64,000 bases of DNA from the NCBI GenBank assembly GCA_004123355.1, contig SCHM01000004.1, forward strand, positions 5,855,017 to 5,919,016. The letters run 5' to 3'. The first letter of the stretch is position 1. Each line of letters opens with the position of its first letter. This DNA comes from Amphirosellinia nigrospora (Eukaryota; Ascomycota; Sordariomycetes; Xylariales; Xylariaceae). Of this stretch, positions 2,266 to 62,800 are shown one piece after another. Below the pieces are notes generated by a model. The model searched no databases, was not told the origin of the DNA, and saw only the letters and a list, made by a program, of their open reading frames with translations. Made by a program: the position numbers and the translations under genes.

Positions 2266-4676
2266 TTAGGATCTCCGGGGATCGCATCGATAATAGCACA
2301 GAGAAGTAGTTAGGGTTCGCGGACTCGTTTGAAATAGAGCTAGAGTCGCGGAACAGCCTTGGCCACGAGCGTGTGGCCTCTGGCTAGCTCTTTCAGGAAG
2401 TGGCCTCCTGCTCTTCTTTTGGTTGTCGGGTCCGGCTGGTTGGCGAATGCTCAGCTCACAGTGATGCCCGATGTTCGTGTTTGAAGTTATGCTCGACATG
2501 GGAGCAGAGACAACGGGAGAAGAGGACAGCGACGTATATCGGTTGTCGAAAGGTTCACCTATCTTCGCCAGTGTCTGAAATATATCCCACACGACATACG
2601 CACCACAGTGATAATCGTTCCGCATAGCCATGGGGTTTTTTGGTGGTGGTTTGTCTTGCTCAGCTCTGGTAAGGATTCCCTCTTGTTCTCAAGACTATCT
2701 CGTTTCTTTTCGACGATGCTCTCCCGTTTCCGCAAAGCTTCTCTCTTCTTTTCCCCAAAGTCTCGCGCCTCTGTTGATCTAGCTCCAGCCGCTCCTCAGG
2801 CGATAGCCAGAGAATTGGCTTGCGTGTTTTCAAGTCCTTGACCAAGCATCGCAATCCCATTCGATCCAATAGTCGAGAACATCCCCCCAGGCACTTTCTG
2901 ACGGCTTTGTGAAATTGATAAAGACGACCTTGCCGCCCTTTTTGTGTACTGCCTTGGCGAACTCCTTCACCATGACTTTCAAACCATGCACGCGTACCAA
3001 GCACCAATAACAAATCCGGACCGGCAGCCAGGTCATGCTGCACGATAGGCGAGATCAGATCGATTGGGGATGTTCCTCTCCATATAGGACAATATCAGGA
3101 CGGAGCTTGCGATGCCGAGAGCTCGCTTCCCCTTCTCCAGGCGGGCTGCCGTGGCCCCGCGCAGTGAGGACACTCCGGCTGTTTCTCCAGACAAGTGCAA
3201 GATTCGCGGCCGTCTTCGTCCAGTCACAAAGTTTACCGCATACGAAGCGGAGAGAATGCAAAGATCCGTGAAGGAACACACACTCGACGCCCTTGTCAGG
3301 GCTGAGTTGGGGACGAGGTTTAGATTGCGTTGATGCTCCTACGTCTTGCGAATTCTGTACCCGCTGGACCGTGTCGGCGGTTCCGGGGGCAGCTACATCA
3401 TCAGGTGATTCTATAGCTTCCTTTCCCGACGGCTCCTGGCTTGGTGCTTTATCGATTTCCTCTTCCTGCCCCGCACCGTGCTTGAGGCAGTTGAGAGCCC
3501 AATCTTCTTCTCGATCTCGTCGTTTTGGGTGTAGACACGAGCGAGCTTCCCCACGTCTCGCATCTGTGCAATGAAGCGATGTGTTACCGTTGGCTCAACC
3601 TCCTTGACCCGCTGCCGCAGGGACTAGCAATCTATAGAAAACTGATGTCTTCAGCGGGTCGGCCCAGATATTGCAGTCAAATAGGTCCCTCCCCTTCATG
3701 TTCCGGAGATTTGAGCTTGAGGCCTGTGATGAGAAGAAGTCGAATGATTGTTGGGTGTCGTCAGACTCAGATATACCGAGCAATCAGACTCGTCATGAGA
3801 GCTGGTATCAGTGGAAGTGGATGTTCTCGTAAGATCGAAGAGGTCTGGTGGTGGCGGAGGAAAGCGACGAACTGGCGAGATGGGCTATGGCTGCAGGCCT
3901 CCTGGGTGTGTTAGACGTGTATGATAGATGGCGTGCTGGGCGTATCCGCAAAGTCGAGACGTCCGTCTGTGAAGAGTTGTGGACGGTGGCGGTCCGAGAA
4001 GAAAGAATCGGGCTTGTTGGATGAGTCGATGGAATGCTGTGTCAGGTGCCGGGTATTGTTGGTCGCAGTATTGTTGCCCGAGACGCGTTACCCGTCGCGA
4101 AGATTCTAGCGAAGCCGTTGCGGCCAATTGGTCCTGTGCCGGATCCGGCTGGTTTGGGCAAGGAACAGGTTCCGTGTGCGTGGTGGTTTCTGAGGGCCGG
4201 CCTGTGTTTGAGATGTAGGCTGGTTCGAAATGGGGAGAACCCGCGAAGTAACGATGTCGGCCGTGTAGTATAGTCGTACGCTAGTCCAGAAGTCCTCCTA
4301 CGCTTTAGCGGTCGCTCGCTGATGTCGAAAGCCGTTGGCAGCGGCGGCGGTATCGGCCGTGGGAGCGGTGGTCTCCCGATCCTCGATGGTGTCCTTTTTC
4401 AAATCGGCACTGGCACTCGCTTCAGCGCGCTCAAATTGATCTTGAATGAGGGAGTAGAGGCCGTTTTCGGAACGGAAGTCCTGGCAGGCATGGTCAGCGG
4501 GTCGATTACTGGTTTAGCAACAATATAATCGGCAAGGGCAACGAGCATACAGGTATCCCAGAGTTGGTGCTTATGCCGGCGCCGGTAATGATGACCATCT
4601 TCCGAGACTTGGCGAGAGTATCGGCGACATTCTGAAGGAGGTCGAGGGCGTCAGGCGTGATCTGAAGGGTAGGCAT
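2266..4676 (-). CDS. Sirtuin, Hst3/Hst4-like NAD-dependent histone deacetylase (frameshifted)
   Basis: Members of this family remove acetyl groups from lysines, typically H3K56, using NAD+ in the nucleus. Exon 1 (4676-4551) gives a perfect sirtuin start with the NAD-binding motif VIITGAGIS followed by TNSGIP. An intron (4550-4481, GTATGC...CCAG) leads to DFRSENGLYSL. Further on appear THRFIAQMRDVGKLARVYTQN, the catalytic-loop FLHGSLHSLR, zinc cysteines (FVCGKLCDW and PECPHC), and VFINFTKPSESAWGDVLDYW. The C-terminal extension includes CGAYVVWDIFQTLAKIGEPFD. Between the core blocks the reading frame changes many times, nearly always by one missing base in a run (for example GG read as G near 3062 and 3109). 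Conserved residues are kept on both sides of each break, so this is probably an intact gene in an error-containing assembly. The long linker between 3600 and 4400 is poorly conserved. Its tail may extend to 1451. Confidence 0.8.
4481..4550 (-). other. Intron 1 of the sirtuin gene
   Basis: 70 nt, GTATGC donor and TGCCAG acceptor. It interrupts the GIP|DFRS motif in phase 0. Confidence 0.8.
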
Positions 4677-12548: not shown

Positions 12549-13759
12549 ATGTTGGCTACACGAGCTGTATTTGCCGCCGCCAGCGCCGAGCCTTTTCCGC
12601 CTCTGCGCATAACGTAAGTGAATAGTATACTTATAACTCATCTTGTCTCGCCCATGGCCGGCCAATTGCTCACGTCACGCCGCCCGTCGGTGAGAACAGC
12701 TCTCCAAAGTCACCGTCCTCGGTGCTGCCGGCGGTATAGGCCAGCCGCTGTCCCTTCTGTTAAAGCAGAACCCCAGAGTCACCGAGCTTGCTCTGTACGA
12801 TATCCGCGGAGGCCCGGTATGTTGATTGTCGTTCTTGTCATCACCTTGCTACCGCTACTACTCCATTCATATCATGATCCTCGCCTAACATGAGATATGG
12901 ATGGCCAGGTGTTGCTGCCGACATCTCCCACATCAACACCAAGAGCACCGTCAAGGGCTACGAGCCCAGCGCCGCCGGCCTCGCCGCCGCTCTCAAGGGT
13001 AGCGACGTCGTCGTCATCCCCGCCGGCGTACCCCGCAAGCCCGGTATGACCCGTGACGACCTCTTCAACACCAATGCCTCCATTGTTCGTGACCTCGCCA
13101 AGGCCTGTGCCGAGTCCAGCCCCGAGGCCAACATCCTCATCATCGCCAACCCCGTCAACTCGACCGTCCCCATCGTCGCCGAGGTCTTCAAGGGTCGCGG
13201 CGTCTACAACCCCAAGCGTCTTTTCGGAGTTACCACCCTCGATGTCGTGCGTGCCAGTCGTTTCGTCAGTGAAATCAAGGGCACCGACCCCGCCGACGAG
13301 CGTATTACCGTCGTCGGTGGCCACTCAGGTGTCACCATCGTTCCCTTGTTCAGCCAGAGCAACCACCCCGACCTGACCTCCGATGCCGAGCTCGTCAAGC
13401 GTGTCCAGTTCGGTGGTGACGAGGTCGTCAAGGCCAAAGATGGTGCCGGCTCCGCCACTCTCTCCATGGCCATGGCTGGTGCCCGCATGACCGACGCTGT
13501 GCTGCGCGCCGCCCAGGGCGAGAAGGGCGTCGTCGAGCCCTCGTTCGTCGACAGCCCTCTCTACAAGGATCAGGGCATCGACTTCTTTGCCTCCAAAGTC
13601 GAACTCGGCCCCAACGGCGTCGAGAAGATTCTCCCCGTCGGCGAGGTCGATGCCAATGAGCAGAAGCTCCTCGAGGCTTGCCTGGGCGACCTCAAGAAGA
13701 ACATTGCTAAGGGTGTGTCTTTCGTCGAGGCCAACCCCCGAAGTAAAACCACAGCATGA
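12549..13759 (+). CDS. Malate dehydrogenase, mitochondrial
   Basis: Catalyses malate + NAD+ to oxaloacetate + NADH in the TCA cycle. Exons: 12549-12613, 12700-12816 and 12909-13759. The N-terminus ([13 protein letters not shown], continuing AFSASAHN) is Arg/Ala/Ser-rich and fits a mitochondrial targeting peptide. The Rossmann motif [19 protein letters not shown] follows, then the substrate-binding/catalytic regions [26 protein letters not shown] and VVGGHSG with the catalytic histidine. The C-terminus [12 protein letters not shown] is typical. Two single bases appear lost: one C in the CCC run near 12585 (restoring the SARAFS reading) and one G at the exon 2 donor (12816/12817). Restoring them gives 344 residues, the normal size. 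Long antisense frames over this gene are composition shadows. Confidence 0.93.
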
Positions 13760-14190: not shown

Positions 14191-16137
14191 TTACTGCCCG
14201 CTCGTATTCCGCCTGCTCCTCGCCATCTCGGCCTTGCCTATGACGGCCTCCAGGGCACCCACGAGCCCAGCCTCGTCGTACCGGAGCACGCCGTCCACCT
14301 GCCGTCGGCCATATACACGCACCGAATCGACGCCCAGGGCCGCGAGCTCGGCCCTGTCGACCCTGGGCGCACCCTCGCCCTCGAGATAGATGAGGTGCGT
14401 CACATAGTCGTGTACCGAGAACACGTCCGAGCCGTCGTGATCGACCTGTAAACTAGGACCTGGCTGCTCGATCGCGCTGGGCGCATCCGGAAAGCCCGTG
14501 GGATTGGAGGTGGGGTGGCCATCATCATGTGCGGGGCGTGCGCGGCCGCGCGTCTCGCTCTCGGCACACGCACGCGCGATGGCGCGCACGAAATCGGCGG
14601 CCGTCAGAGCGCGTGCGCCGCTCGGCCCCGTCTCGCGGTCGAGCGACGAGTTCAAGATGAGGATCTTGTGGCGCACGTGGGGCGCGCGGATGGCGGCGCC
14701 GACGCCGCGGAGGATCAGGCTGGGCACGAGCGAGGTGTAGAGCGACCCGATGCTGTAGACGACGGTGCGGGCCGCCGCGATGCTCGAGAGGACCTTTGGG
14801 TTGGCCACGGGGTAGATCTCGTGCCCGTACGGGTTGATGTACCAGATGCGCGAGATGCGCGATGGTAGGTCGTCGGTGCCGGGCGATGGGGACTTGGTGA
14901 AGGTGATGTATTGTTTCCGTAACGAGGGTAGAGAGCCCGGTAGCGTGGCGTCTTCTATGCGGTCGTGCGCCTCGGTTTCACGTAGCACGGTTTGTGCGTC
15001 TTCCAGGGTGAAGAGTCTCGGTTGTGGTAGTGGCGTTGTTGTGGAGGTCGGGGTAAAGATGGTGGGAGTAGCGAGAGATGATGATGAAGGGCCTTCCGCT
15101 GCTACCATGGACGCCGTCGTCGTATCCCCGGTGTCGGGCAGGCTGGTCGGCGCCGAGGGGTGGGAGATGGCGTTCTGTCCGGTGATCTGTGAACCGTCCT
15201 CCAGCCCTGCACTGATGTGGTGTGTGAAGTTGCTGTTGATGGCTGGGAGGGTTGCTACTGCTGGCGGGACGGCGCAGATGGTGGAGAGGAGATAGATGGC
15301 CGATTCTAGAGATCCTGTGAAGAGTCGTGCACTGTTCCCCTGGTTAGATTGGGACAAGTGAATCAACCACAACATACCCAGTCAAGAATAAGTTCCCAAT
15401 ACTCGCCTTAGCAAAGTTAAAGACAGAGCTAGGCCGCGCCCGCTTCACGATCTCCATATTGGTATGGTTGAAGATGGAGCGGATGAGCTCCCGCTTCTCG
15501 GTCGATATATCGACCCATAGCGTGTGGCGACCCTCGACGATGTCCAGCCACTCTATGCGTGCCGACGAAGCGTCGGACGAGAGACGATGGTTGAAGAGGG
15601 ATTTCAACGATGCCCTTTCTCCGTCGGTGTCTGACGGGGGGATCAGACGGACCAGGCGGCCTATCACGATCAGTGGTGGTGAAGCATGAAAACGATAGAA
15701 GACCGGAGGTGGTTAATAGGGATAGTGATAGGGGTATGGATAGATATAGACTTACTTCGTACATCGCCTATGCCTGTTTTTTATTTTCATGTTAATGAAA
15801 TGAGTGACAGTAGACGCATAATCGGGAAGGTAAGGAGTGAGAGTAAGAGTGAGAGGGAGAGTGAGTGAGTGAGTGAGCGAGCGAGTGAGTCTGTATGATG
15901 TATGTATGTATGTAAGTGAAAACAAGCAATTGATGATGAGTAGAGCGAACTACCTAATGAACTCACCCGGCCCCCGAAAACCCGAATCAGCTCAGAACTA
16001 CTACCACCATTATCGCTGATGGGGATGACATGTTGCAGAGTGCAGCCGCGACTCTCACGCAGCCTCTCGAAGACGTCTACTAGGCTATTCGTCGCTGTGC
16101 CGCCGCCGAAGACGACGATGCCCTTGGGCGTGTCCAT
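14191..16137 (-). CDS. CofD-like / UPF0052 family protein
   Basis: Exons: 16137-15967, a microexon 15773-15756 (18 nt), 15660-15378 and 15331-14191. Exon 1 encodes the phosphate-binding glycine loop IVVFGGGTATNSLVDVF and the PISDNGGSSSELIR motif of the CofD/YvcK fold. The microexon supplies GIGDVR. Exon 3 continues with RLVRLIPPS and ends in ASIGNLFLTG, and exon 4 opens with ARLFTGSLESAIYLL. One C is probably missing at the end of exon 1 (near 15968). With it, the exons total 1,614 nt, giving 537 residues. Relatives in archaea transfer phospholactate to cofactor F420 precursors, and bacterial YvcK regulates cell-wall metabolism. The fungal role is not established and no F420 pathway is expected. 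Intron 1 (193 nt) contains GA/GT simple repeats. Confidence 0.82.
15836..15893. repeat. GA/GT-rich simple repeat inside an intron
   Basis: Runs of GAGT/GTGA units (GAGTGAGTGAGTGAG and similar) within intron 1 of the CofD-like gene, followed by a short TGTATGTA run. Confidence 0.7.
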
Positions 16138-35322: not shown

Positions 35323-36920
35323 TTAAAAACATTGGTTGTCCTTGCTAAACCCAAAGAGTGATGAAATGCCCCAACCAGATGTCTTTGTGACTTGGCGTGA
35401 GGTTTTGTTATCTAGGGTCAATGAATAAAACGTCAACATGTCGTCGTAACTATCGGTCGCTAAAGCACTTGGCTCCTCAAGTTCGACTGTCTCTTCTCTT
35501 GGGGTGCTTATTCCGCCAACCGTATATACCGATGTTGGAGTAGCTAGGTCGACATCGACGAACTGCCCAGAGCTCTCGCTGTCCTCATCCTCACTCAACA
35601 TTTCCTCAGCCGGGGTCGTAGCACACGACTCCGAAACAATCGGTGGAACATTTAGTGCGAAAGCCGATGAGTGCTCGCTCTTATCCAAGAACCTTCCCGC
35701 GACCTCATTGGTGGTAAACTCCCCATATACCCTGTCTGGGAGCACTCTGTCGATCTCCTCCCGTGGAATACTACAACACTCGAAGTTAGTCGTTACTTTT
35801 AAGAGGGCGAATTATAAGGGATTTAGAAGCTTCGAGATATTCTCACGTCCTAAAAGGGAAATGTTGCTTCTGAAACTTGCTGAAATACAAAGAAAATAGT
35901 TCGGAGAATTACGCACTCATTAAGGATGGTGAGATCAAGACGTTCTGCCGTGTCTATAAACTCGAGTTAGTTACCAACATGTCGAGCACGAATGGGAGGG
36001 AAATGTTCCGAGAATGGCTTACCTGCCTCACGCCTAAATTCCAAAAGGGAAGGATCGATAGCACCGCACTACAATACTGGAGTTAGTAATATTCATAAGC
36101 GTATAGAAGCTGTAGAATCATCTTAGCTGCAAGAGAGATCCCGTGATCTACAATTTGACAAATAAAAAAGAGCAGAAATTGGTTCTGGGATATACTTAAC
36201 TGCTTCAGTCTTGCCGACCTTGCACTACAATACTCGGAGTCAGTTATTGCTATCTAAAGCTAATTTGTGGGAGTTTTGGAAGCTTCCAGACACTCCCTTG
36301 TCCCTTAAAGGGAAACATGGTGCTCTGAAGGTTGTCGAAATAGGAAGAAAATAGCACCGAGAGTTACTCACCGCATGTGGTAGTTTTGCAACAACTATAG
36401 AAGGTGTGTTATGTTGGCATGGGTTCTCATGAACAGTCTTGGGAGGTGATCTTGATCCTAATGACTCCGAAGATGATGAGTTGTCGAGACGTGGCCGGCA
36501 CTATAACAATCGGAGTTAGCTATCGCTATTCAGAGTTGATATGTGGGAGTTTTAGAAGCCTTTCGGCACTCTCTTCCAAGAAGCGAAACTTGGTGCTCTA
36601 AAAGTTTCCAAAACGTTAGAAGATGTACCGAGAGTTACTTACGCAAACGGAAGGCTCCGGAGTACGACAGCCACAGGCGTACTATAACACTAGGAGTTAG
36701 TCGTTGCTTTTGAGAGGGCGAATTTAAAGGGTTTCAGAAGCTTCAAGACATTACATGTCCTTGAAAAAGGCAATATTTTGCTCTGAAACTTGCCAAACTA
36801 GAAAAAAACAGTTCCGAGATTACGCACATAGAAGTATATAGCCATGCAAAACGTAGACGGCTGCGTAGGCTCCAGCGCCCTTTCAGGTTCGGATTTGTTG
36901 AGTGGAGCCAACGTCGACAT
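35323..36920 (-). CDS. Small seven-exon protein whose introns are copies of one another
   Basis: Exons: 36920-36828, 36681-36643, 36500-36372, 36224-36201, 36068-36023, 35953-35917 and 35770-35323 (93, 39, 129, 24, 46, 37 and 448 nt). They total 816 nt, exactly 271 codons plus stop, with no frame error. The start is MSTLAPLNKSEPERALEPTQ. Exons 1-5 give a Cys-rich section (YFYYACGCR, PEPSVCCRP, then CKVGKTEA, CGAIDPSLLEF). The last exon is acidic and Ser/Thr-rich (EEMLSEDEDSESSGQFVDVD) and ends SLFGFSKDNQCF. The CGC-type start recalls small fungal proteins of unknown function. No signal peptide or membrane segment. Introns 1, 2, 3 and 6 are clearly homologous to one another, and introns 4 and 5 share only their ends with them. 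The exact reading-frame closure over seven exons is the main support for the model. Confidence 0.75.
35771..35916 (-). repeat. Introner-like intron copy (intron 6)
   Basis: 146 nt, GTGCGT...TTGTAG, phase 2. Very close to intron 1 across its whole length, including the central GAAGCTTC palindrome, the ATTCGCCCTCT block and the GACTAAC branch site. Confidence 0.8.
35954..36022 (-). repeat. Short intron (intron 5), possible internally deleted copy
   Basis: 69 nt, GTAAGC...TTATAG, phase 1. Only the ends (TTCTCGGAACATTT at the 5' side and CTAACTCGAGT at the 3' side) resemble the longer copies. Confidence 0.5.
36069..36200 (-). repeat. Diverged intron (intron 4)
   Basis: 132 nt, GTTAAG...TTGTAG, phase 0. 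The 3' end (TACTAACTCCAGTATTGTAG) matches intron 3 closely; the interior does not. Confidence 0.55.
36225..36371 (-). repeat. Introner-like intron copy (intron 3)
   Basis: 147 nt, GTGAGT...TTGTAG, phase 0. Terminal CTCGG and CCGAG are inverted to each other. The centre can fold as a hairpin: GGGAGT/ACTCCC flanking the palindrome TGGAAGCTTCCA (36269-36297). Confidence 0.8.
36501..36642 (-). repeat. Introner-like intron copy (intron 2)
   Basis: 142 nt, GTAAGT...TTATAG, phase 0. Closest to intron 3 (shared AACTCTCGGT, AGAGCACCA and AAAACTCCCACA). Flanked by TGC on both exon sides. Confidence 0.8.
36682..36827 (-). repeat. Introner-like intron copy (intron 1)
   Basis: 146 nt, GTGCGT...TTATAG, phase 0. 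Closest to intron 6. Confidence 0.8.
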
Positions 36921-59814: not shown

Positions 59815-62800
59815 TTAGTCATCCTCATCGGAGAAGACCTCCTCACCGCGCTTCCGGCGAGCCATACGCTCTACAAAGTCAAGTTAGTGAGTGTTTGAAC
59901 AGATAGAGTCGTCGAGGCTATCCACTTACCCTTCTTCTTCTTTCGTGCCTCGGAGCTGGTCAGCTTCGCCTTCTTCTTCGTCGAGACAATCTTGTTGCCC
60001 ATGGCGTCGAACTTATCCTCCTCGTCGTCGTCACCCTGCTTTAGCCTTGGACCGCCACCCTGACCCTGCACCCAGTTGTGGCCCGAGGGAGTCATCTTGC
60101 CGTCCATGACAGCCCAGACTTCCTCAGTAAGATCCTTGGTGAACTCGGCACTGTGAGTAATGATGATCACACCACCTTCGAACTTCTTCAAGGCCTTGGA
60201 CAGAGCACCCAGGGAGTCACGGTCCAGGTAGTTGGTAGGTTCGTCGAGGACAATCAAATGAGGGCGTTGCCACGAGCAAGCCGCAAGCACGACTTTGACA
60301 CGTTGACCACCGGACAGACCCTTCATACGAGAGTGAGAGACCAGCTCAGCATCGAGGCCGAAGTTGGAGCAGTGCGACTCAATCTCCTTGCGTACCAGGG
60401 GGCGGAACTGACCAGAGGCTAGGGCCTCCTTCATATCGACATCAGCAACCATCTTCTGGTGAGATGCGAGCAGCTCGCTACGTGGCAACCAAGCATTGTC
60501 GGCCGTCATCATGGGTACCCAACGCTCGTTCTTCATGCCTACATTCTCACCCAGAGCAAATGAGCATTCATACTCATAACTGTTCTTGAACTTTCTCCGG
60601 CTGTTGATACCGATAACACGTCGCTGGCTACCTTCGACCTTGAAGATCTTGTCCATAGCCTTCTCGTCATCCTCGGTGATGATCTTGTTAGCACGGTCCA
60701 TGGTCTCACGATCCTCGCCGGTCTGGAAACGCCATTGGATGTACTCGGAAGGAGTCTTGTCCAGGTGATTATCGATGTGAGCGAAAGCGTGCTGCTTGAT
60801 GTAGGCGATACGGATGTTCTCATGCTGGTAGATCTCACCGGCAGTGGGGATGAGTTCACCAGTGAGGACGTTGATTAGGGTTGACTTGCCGGCACCATTA
60901 GGACCGATGACGGCAATACGAGAACCGAGAGAACACTGGAACGTGATATCGGTTATTTGAGGCTTAGGGGTGCCGGGGTATTGGAAGCTCATCTTAGTCG
61001 CTCTCAGGATAGCCTTAGCCTTAGTCTTCACACCCTCAAGGAAACCGGGTTCCGGGAAGGAAAACTCGATCTCAGATTCTCCAAGTTCGTAATAAGATTT
61101 AGCTGAAGGGTTCTTGCGGACAAATTCCTTCAAGTTACCCTTGTACTTCTTGAGCTTGAATCGTTCGTAATGGATAATGTACTGCGTGACATTGTCCAAG
61201 AAACCACTATCGTGCGAGACGATAATGGAGGTGCAGGGCGAGTTGATGAGGTAGTCTTCGAGCCATTTGACGTTCTTCACATCAAGATGGTTAGTGGGCT
61301 CGTCGAGAAGCAGGATATCAGGTGCTTCGAAAACGGCACGGCATAGGGCCAGCTTCATCTTCCAACCACCAGACAGAGCAGTGATATCGCCAGAAATCAT
61401 GCTAGGTGAGAAGCCAAACTCGGCGAGACGGGCCTCGACCTCGTCCTTGGAAGACGAGACACTGGCCTCAGCCAACTTCTTCATAGTCCAGTCGATGGTG
61501 GTCATTTCGGTATCAGCCGAGTCCAAGTCGTGCTCAACGAAGACGGTCTTGACTTCGCTCTGCTTGGGGAAGCCCTCAACCTGCTCGTTGTTGATGGCAC
61601 GCATCAGGGTTGATTTACCAGAACCGTTGGGACCGCACAGACCGTAACGACGGCCACGCTTAAGACGCAAGTGGGTCTGGTTGAGTAGGATTTTCGCACC
61701 ATAGGCCAGTGAGAACGTGCAGTTGCAGAGGTCCTCACCGTCGTCATCCTCGTCTTCCTCTTTTTCGTCCTCTTCGATACCAGGGGAGGCACGCTTTCGG
61801 AGCGCATCCACAACGGCTTCGGCATCATCGCCAACAAGGACGGAGGCGAAAGGCTTGACGGCAGCAGCCCAGACAGCCGACTCAATCTCCTTCTCATCAA
61901 CGAGCTGGCCACCGATGGCGCCGATGTAGTCGACGACAGCAGAGAGTTTCTGGCGACGGCGGAGTGCTTGGCAGGGATGACAGCCTTGAGGTGGGCGACA
62001 ACAGTGTCAATGTCACCGTCGTGGCGAACTTCGGGAATCTTGCCATCCTTGATGTTACCGACGCGGATGATGGTGTCGAGAGCTTGCTTGGTCTTCTCAC
62101 GAGCTTCGGGGTCGGCAAGAGTCTCGAAGTTCTTGGTCAAACCAGGCATCATCTTAGGCAAGAAGGGAACGATATTGGGGTCGTCGACGAGCTTGCACAT
62201 GTTGTCAACGATGACGGCCGCCTTACGCTTGATGGCGGTCTCACGCTCAGCCAGACCACGATCAAGTAAAGGAACCATGAGGGCAAGCGTAGGCTCGTGA
62301 ACCTCGGTGACGAAAGTGGTTGCACCAAGCAAGTGTACGGTCTCAGGGACGTTCTCTGGCTTGGCAATACACTTGATAAGCTCAGGGATGAAGCGTTCGA
62401 TATCACGATTGACAATCAACTCGCAAATCTTTTCCATCGTCTTGTATGCACGGTCCTTGACCTCCTTCTTCGTATCCCACATAGCCCCGGAAATGACGGG
62501 AATCAGCTCGGGGACACGGTACGCCAACTGAGCCGGCGAGGTGCGGACCAGCGTGTCGACGCAGTCCAGGGCGGCCATCTTCTCAGGCCACTTCTGAGCG
62601 GTCAGAATGGAGTTGGTGATATGAGGCAGGGCGGCCTTGACGGAGTTGGGGTTGATTGCCTCGATGATGGCTAGGCAGCAGCGGTGGCAGCGTTCTTGAC
62701 AGCAGTGATCTTGTCACCAATAGCAGACAGGACCAGGGGTAAGAGGATGACGAGGTAAGGCTCAACGTTGGCTGATACCTCAGAGTGTTGCGCGATCGCC

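Follow-up and report, generated by a model that had tools for sequence, protein, structure and literature searches.

A family of similar, probably mobile introns with a biased exonic site in the genome of Amphirosellinia nigrospora

Analysis of the Amphirosellinia nigrospora genome (48.1 Mb in 11 contigs), centred on a stretch of 64,000 nt at C6:5855017-5919016 (hereafter the window), revealed a family of introns of approximately 146 nt, here termed family I, which occurs in unrelated genes on at least six contigs. We consider it probable that family I represents a mobile spliceosomal intron which is inserted seamlessly, with the excised RNA being the likeliest vehicle. The analysis follows up an earlier note on the window, in which several introns of one gene had been proposed to be copies of a single introner-like element.

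Results

The host gene occupies positions 35323..36920 of the window on the minus strand, from its start codon (36918-36920) to its stop codon (35323-35325). Removal of six GT..AG introns of 146, 142, 147, 132, 69 and 146 nt leaves seven exons, the longest of which is exon 7 (35323..35770, minus strand; 448 nt including the stop codon), and these sum to 816 nt, i.e. 271 codons plus a stop, thereby recovering exactly the frame that the earlier note had described. A frame of 274 codons also closes when other donors are used for introns 4 and 6; the 271-codon model is favoured because the family alignment places these two donors accordingly, intron 6 beginning at GTGCGTAA, as do many copies, and the GTTAAGTAT of intron 4 being set, by eye, on the GTGAGTAAT of the family. 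By arithmetic, this gene model puts introns 1-4 in phase 0, intron 5 in phase 1 and intron 6 in phase 2. A Pfam scan of the host protein returned no match, and a search of the genome for a paralogue that would represent an empty site found no other copy of the gene. When the family I profile (see below) was applied to the rest of the window, the host gene being excluded, the best match had an E value of only 0.14. Neighbours of the gene within the window include a lactate/malate dehydrogenase (12890-13759, plus strand), a CofD-like protein (14191-15375, minus strand) and an open frame for an ABC-type ATPase (59871-61811, minus strand).

Introns 1 (36682..36827; 146 nt), 2 (36501..36642; 142 nt), 3 (36225..36371; 147 nt) and 6 (35771..35916; 146 nt), all on the minus strand, are full-length members of family I, in line with the proposal that they are copies of one sequence. 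They score 84.6, 83.6, 122 and 92.2 bits, respectively, against the family profile, all four being among the 43 sequences from which it was built, and their exon junctions are T|TA, C|TG, G|TG and A|TA (the bar marking the position of the intron). Introns 4 and 5 had been held to share only the ends of the other introns, which proved incorrect as both resemble the family beyond their ends. Intron 4 (36069..36200, minus strand; 132 nt), which lies outside the model, matches profile positions 3-146 of 147 (19 bits, E = 6e-5), and its junction as read from the sequence, A|TG, is the commonest family I junction. Intron 5 (35954..36022, minus strand; 69 nt) is matched by the profile search in its 5′ part only (E = 2), and its ends, GTAAGCCATTCTCGGAACATTTCC at the 5′ side and CTAACTCGAG at the 3′ side, resemble those of family I. 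When the scores of the two ends are summed, intron 5 lies above 20,000 of 20,000 shuffles and intron 4 above all but 0.055%, and both exceed all 30 ordinary introns and fall below most family I members; when the 3′ end is scored alone, one ordinary intron outscores both. Judged by these likenesses, intron 4 reads as a decayed member of family I, while intron 5 is probably a derivative that has suffered an internal deletion.

The suggestion that the full-length introns fall into two pairs held in part: introns 1 and 6 are mutually close (77.6% identity, ranks 1 and 2 of 68), whereas introns 2 and 3 are rejected as a pair (71.8% identity, ranks 8 and 47). The closest relatives of intron 3 (up to 93.7% identity) sit in other genes, and it belongs to a young clade of seven copies with a mean identity of 0.90, the remainder of which are likewise located in other genes. 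All introns of the host gene seem to derive from family I; the gene would probably have received at least four, and probably six, insertions independently, and was probably intronless before these events.

A genome search employing the gene region, in which 40 of 109 candidates were scored, returned at least 46 matches, namely the gene itself and at least 45 elsewhere, and all of these outside matches fall on stretches of intron 1, 3 or 6. When up to two mismatches were allowed, a pattern of 20 bases representing the 3′ end matched the genome 248 times (125 forward and 123 reverse), compared to four matches for the reversed pattern that served as a control. The profile built from 43 copies was run against 75 records (332,823 bases, some overlapping) and found 69 distinct copies at E values up to 1e-10, matches above this value being excluded; their length ranges from 136 to 169 nt, with a median of 146 nt. 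GT and AG are positioned exactly at the profile ends in 60 of the 69 copies, and boundaries are approximate in the other nine. The latter include a P450 copy (L013), the AG of which lies 5 nt past the profile end, and a deletion copy (L056, 5′ end at C1:10305672), whose mannose isomerase match was left out as junction evidence because of its approximate boundary. Alignment of 51 copies with 15-nt flanks revealed that the likeness ends at the splice sites, the flanking exons being unrelated, so that introns of unrelated genes are similar over their full width and no further. The genome-wide search that the earlier note had suggested thus yielded many further copies, in unrelated genes and with ends at splice sites, and this spread, together with the position of the ends, supports its reading of these introns as introner-like elements.

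The 69 copies reside in 54 host loci, 11 of which contain at least two copies on the same strand within 1.5 kb. Several related copies per gene, regarded in the earlier note as rare, are therefore common in this genome and have also been described for four Dothideomycete genes (PMC4457414). Copies in the same gene (n = 20 pairs) have a mean identity of 0.681, as against 0.697 for all pairs (p = 0.78; 5,000 permutations). As such copies resemble each other no more than copies drawn at random do, they would have arrived independently, and local spread within a gene is rejected as a general rule. Clades of 7, 14, 4 and 4 copies were discerned, with mean identities of 0.90, 0.85, 0.88 and 0.88, respectively, and these clades, which differ in age, suggest several bursts of spread. 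Copies were also observed to cluster: among 100 listed of the 248 3′ ends, five pairs lie within 3 kb of each other, approximately 0.6 being expected under a uniform distribution, and examples are found at C1:146849-148540 and C4:8769294-8769675. Some genes or chromatin regions therefore seem to receive introns more often.

The reading frames that are restored upon removal of the copies would suggest that these are spliced. With 120 nt taken on each side of the join, a frame across it is open in 36 of 69 spliced copies, compared to 11 and 16 for joins displaced by 1 or 2 nt and to one when the intron is retained; with 90 nt per side, the corresponding figures are 48 (spliced), 30 and 26 (shifted), one (retained) and 25 (antisense). 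At 45 nt per side the measure hardly discriminates (66 spliced, 57 and 56 shifted, three retained). Thirty spliced pieces were derived and 20 of these were given to Pfam, of which 17 produced a match and 13 contain a domain above the cut-off that spans the junction: two P450s, a TPP enzyme, a fatty acid desaturase, an MFS transporter, a GH76 protein, an alpha/beta hydrolase, an amidoligase, a DUF4246 protein, an AMP-binding enzyme, a fucosidase, a lyase and an FAD-binding protein. All three codon phases, as had been predicted, occur among the junctions inside Pfam domains. Phases assigned to copies from the longest open frame are liable to error, and for introns 1 and 2 of the host gene that frame disagrees with the gene model.

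Pyruvate decarboxylase and argininosuccinate lyase could be aligned without a gap over the junction to solved relatives, as could a third enzyme, a GH3 xylosidase; in these three genes the insertion is seamless and the protein is left intact. Both junctions of an adenylating enzyme with two copies fall within matched stretches, the second just two residues in. In six of the 69 copies the junction is not crossed by any sense frame of at least 60 aa, and in one more the frame measures just 63 aa; for some of these seven, sense frames reach or adjoin the copy. Two of these, the young copies C6:3214257-3214399 and C6:3214568-3214713 (L005/L003), lie 168 nt apart, and no sense frame within 320 nt reaches 60 aa. 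This pair may consequently be positioned outside coding sequence, i.e. in an untranslated region or a non-coding transcript, or outside genes.

The exon bases that border the copies are strongly biased. In the 60 exact copies, the base that follows the intron (+1) is T in 46 cases (binomial p = 2e-18), the next base (+2) is G in 29 (p = 4e-4) and the base that precedes the intron (−1) is A in 28 (p = 1e-4). A T at +1 occurs in 9 of 30 ordinary introns predicted in the same DNA (Fisher p = 3e-5 against family I), a set that may include false predictions (6 decoys against 35 raw candidates). The site is A|T in 25 of the 60 copies and any base followed by T in 46, with G at +1 in only two. Exact patterns applied genome-wide located T after 39 of 55 3′ ends and A before 18 of 31 5′ ends, these sets overlapping with many of the 60 exact copies. 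Target-site duplications were sought at offsets of −6 to +6 around the copies and none was found. The pyruvate decarboxylase copy interrupts a Met codon as A|TG; since the T completes this codon, and the same residue is Met in the solved relative 1pvd, it belongs to the target in that gene, and it is unlikely that the +1 T forms part of the element. The site bias argues for some sequence preference in the joining step.

Predicted consensus folds of four clades and of the whole family share a near-terminal stem, UAAU.CUCGG..CCGAG.GUUG, which is nearly the same in all five. Symmetry with the own reverse complement reached z values of 2.75, 2.99, 3.46 and 1.92 for clades A-D, respectively, and 1.05 for the whole family, and the fold z of the consensuses was −2.51 for clade B and between −0.42 (clade D) and −1.49 for the other four. 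Single copies (n = 43) had a mean symmetry z of 1.74, with 16 above 2, and a mean fold z of −0.42, with 3 of 43 below −2, so that their folding does not surpass that of shuffles. The longest Watson-Crick complementarity between the two ends was significant for clade B (8 pairs, p = 0.003) and the whole family (7 pairs, p = 0.026) and not for the other three clades, A, C and D; once G-U pairs were admitted, significance was obtained for clade B only (10 pairs, p = 0.010). Six or more paired end bases are present in 21 of 69 copies, the corresponding share being approximately 9% among shuffles and 1 of 18 among ordinary introns, and the terminal helix is paired in 81.7% of cells compared to 32-46% when it is slid. 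RNAalifold predicted no common base pair for family I and no covariation was seen in the terminal helix, on which grounds selection to maintain a structure in inserted copies is unsupported. The stem may instead belong to the active copy and be lost gradually once a copy has been inserted.

A second introner family was also detected. The published 5′-NTIRE-10 pattern, with one mismatch, matched the genome 13 times as against four in the control, and four of these matches (C1:348767, C1:4404847, C5:242476 and C5:1195028; L075-L078) contain a common word and stand at the head of introns of 68-115 nt, which start with GTGTGTATAAAAAC. Three of the four are alike throughout and the 68-nt intron is less so. 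A pattern of their 3′ end, with up to three mismatches, produced 28 genome matches and none in the control, and a DNA search produced seven matches. This family II, which is smaller than family I, thus contains the NTIRE-10 motif published for Xylariales. The ITS and 5.8S sequences of the genome likewise resemble those of this order, of the Hypoxylaceae or Xylariaceae, a placement that family II supports. In the GH3 xylosidase gene (L008, C4:3684436-3684689, minus strand), a family I intron is followed by a family II intron with no exon between them. Removal of the family I intron alone leaves a best frame of 121 residues, which is not that of the enzyme, while removal of both introns results in a 242-residue frame that aligns without a gap over the join with xylosidase 7vc7. 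A separate observation concerns the rDNA locus L043, where a small-subunit stretch at 2300-3060 looks duplicated, possibly on either side of an intron or of a broken unit.

Discussion

In the mechanism that we consider probable, the multiplying unit would be the intron itself, from the GT of the 5′ splice site to the AG of the 3′ splice site. It would enter exons without adding, duplicating or losing bases, with a preference for A|T(G) and in the sense orientation wherever a frame can be read, and because insertion would be both sense and seamless, the spliceosome could remove the intron and the protein would stay unchanged. The excised intron RNA would enter a transcribed gene where its DNA is broken or forms an R-loop, and would then be converted to DNA, the near-terminal stem possibly holding both intron ends together. 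Of the possible routes, copying by way of the excised RNA is the likeliest; we infer this copying step, as well as splicing itself and the recent gain of the introns, from the features of the copies. The route fits the exact splice-site ends, the seamless insertion and the sense frames. An intron-RNA route has been argued for fungal elements by others (PMC8469720), and Fekete et al. propose that RNA is captured in breaks. The A|T(G) bias is predicted neither by reverse splicing nor by random break capture, and the site bias fits neither version of the RNA route well. A rather unlikely extension is that family I integrates sequence-selectively and free of duplications at (C)A|T(G), the stem, which two families of different sequence would have in common, and the site preference together reflecting a separate integration chemistry. 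If true, integration at (C)A|T(G) would not follow from the introner, stwintron and transposon routes as set out in the accessible parts of the published accounts.

The strong exonic site bias is a new observation, and it also bears on the idea that family I consists of non-autonomous DNA transposons (MITE- or Helitron-like) with splice sites, inserted at A|T by a transposase or helicase without duplication. We judge this to be unlikely, if credible: the bias and the approximately palindromic form of the site, (C)A|TG, hint at an integration enzyme that binds DNA, and near-terminal inverted repeats in the consensus folds, deleted copies that retain both ends (L056 and intron 5), the two young copies without a nearby frame and the DNA signatures reported for 78.5% of non-ascomycete introner families (PMC9860276) all point in the same direction. 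Against it stand the lack of target duplications, the coincidence of ends and splice sites in 60 of 69 copies and the excess of sense frames, while the inverted repeat, lying 10 nt in from one end and 8 nt from the other, is not a proper terminal repeat. Helitrons insert at A|T without duplication and end in 5′-TC and 3′-CTRR; such ends are absent from family I, which starts with GT and mostly ends with RTAG.

The presence of family II, with its published 5′-NTIRE-10, in the same genome raises the prospect that family I derives from the sister stwintrons of Hypoxylaceae/Xylariaceae as type-2 cropped sister introns. The host belongs to the Xylariales, the introns of both families are canonical, and both stwintron papers (PMC8469720, PMC12403724) describe inverted repeats close to the termini, which also occur in the present consensuses. 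Such a derivation is nevertheless improbable, as a nested G|GT..AG|T donor is missing from family I, its consensus does not contain the printed GTATAAAAAC and WTTCTAGAAA, and its sites are biased where those of stwintrons are reported as unbiased. A [D1,2] nesting in the consensus, i.e. an internal AG followed by TRNGT, was looked for by eye and none was seen, so that family I itself is rejected as a stwintron. That ordinary introns were made alike by gene conversion or tandem duplication inside the host gene is extremely improbable: the close relationship of introns 1 and 6 speaks for it, but relatives occur on at least six contigs in unrelated genes, the bordering exon bases cannot be aligned and sharing a gene does not make copies more similar than chance pairs, and as a general explanation it is refuted by this genome-wide spread and these identities. 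Family I as a mobile spliceosomal intron, copied by way of its RNA, remains the reading that we prefer.

Concerning known systems, the introner-like elements of the Dothideomycetes Fulvia fulva and Dothistroma (Collemare et al. 2015, PMC4457414) are, like family I, similar canonical introns in many genes that decay with age, two copies being present per gene in four cases. Their reported site preference, as retold in PMC8469720, is AG/GY and not the [A/G]|T(G) of family I, and a stable predicted structure is a feature of these elements, where in family I single copies show no stable fold and the clade B consensus has a fold z of −2.51; furthermore, the family I host belongs to the Xylariales. 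Multiplying introns and stwintrons are known from this order (PMC8469720, PMC12403724), and its sister stwintrons resemble family I in that they proliferate and insert seamlessly without target duplications, in that near-end inverted repeats, of about 10 nt in the stwintrons and supported in part for family I, could hold their termini together, and in that symmetry is clearest in younger copies. Family I differs by being un-nested, by the sequence of its repeat and by its clear exonic site bias, as no bias in the bordering exon bases is reported for the stwintrons of Hypoxylaceae and Xylariaceae in the accessible text of these papers. The stwintron NTIRE-10 is carried in the present genome by family II and not by family I. 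In number, the 248 3′ ends of family I compare with 23 full-length sister stwintrons in Hypoxylon sp. CO27-5, to which 13 sheared and 12 cropped relatives are to be added.

The introners of Gozashti et al. 2022 (PMC9860276) are, as is family I, introns located in genes and similar over their full width. In the accessible text of that paper, ascomycete introners are without target duplications, as is the case here, and without terminal repeats, the near-terminal repeat of family I being partly supported; the site bias of family I constitutes a difference. A literature search returned no published description of family I, which might already be among the families of PMC9860276.

The origin of new spliceosomal introns is a long-standing open question. 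According to the accessible text of PMC8469720 and PMC12403724, stwintron families and their derivatives only have been described in the order in which we now find canonical introners in a few hundred copies. In this genome one family has copies over a range of ages, one gene seems to have drawn all its introns from that family, and there is a target preference that can be measured. Since this preference is not predicted by random break capture or classical reverse splicing, rival mechanisms become testable, and the genome of this fungus may record how new introns are born.
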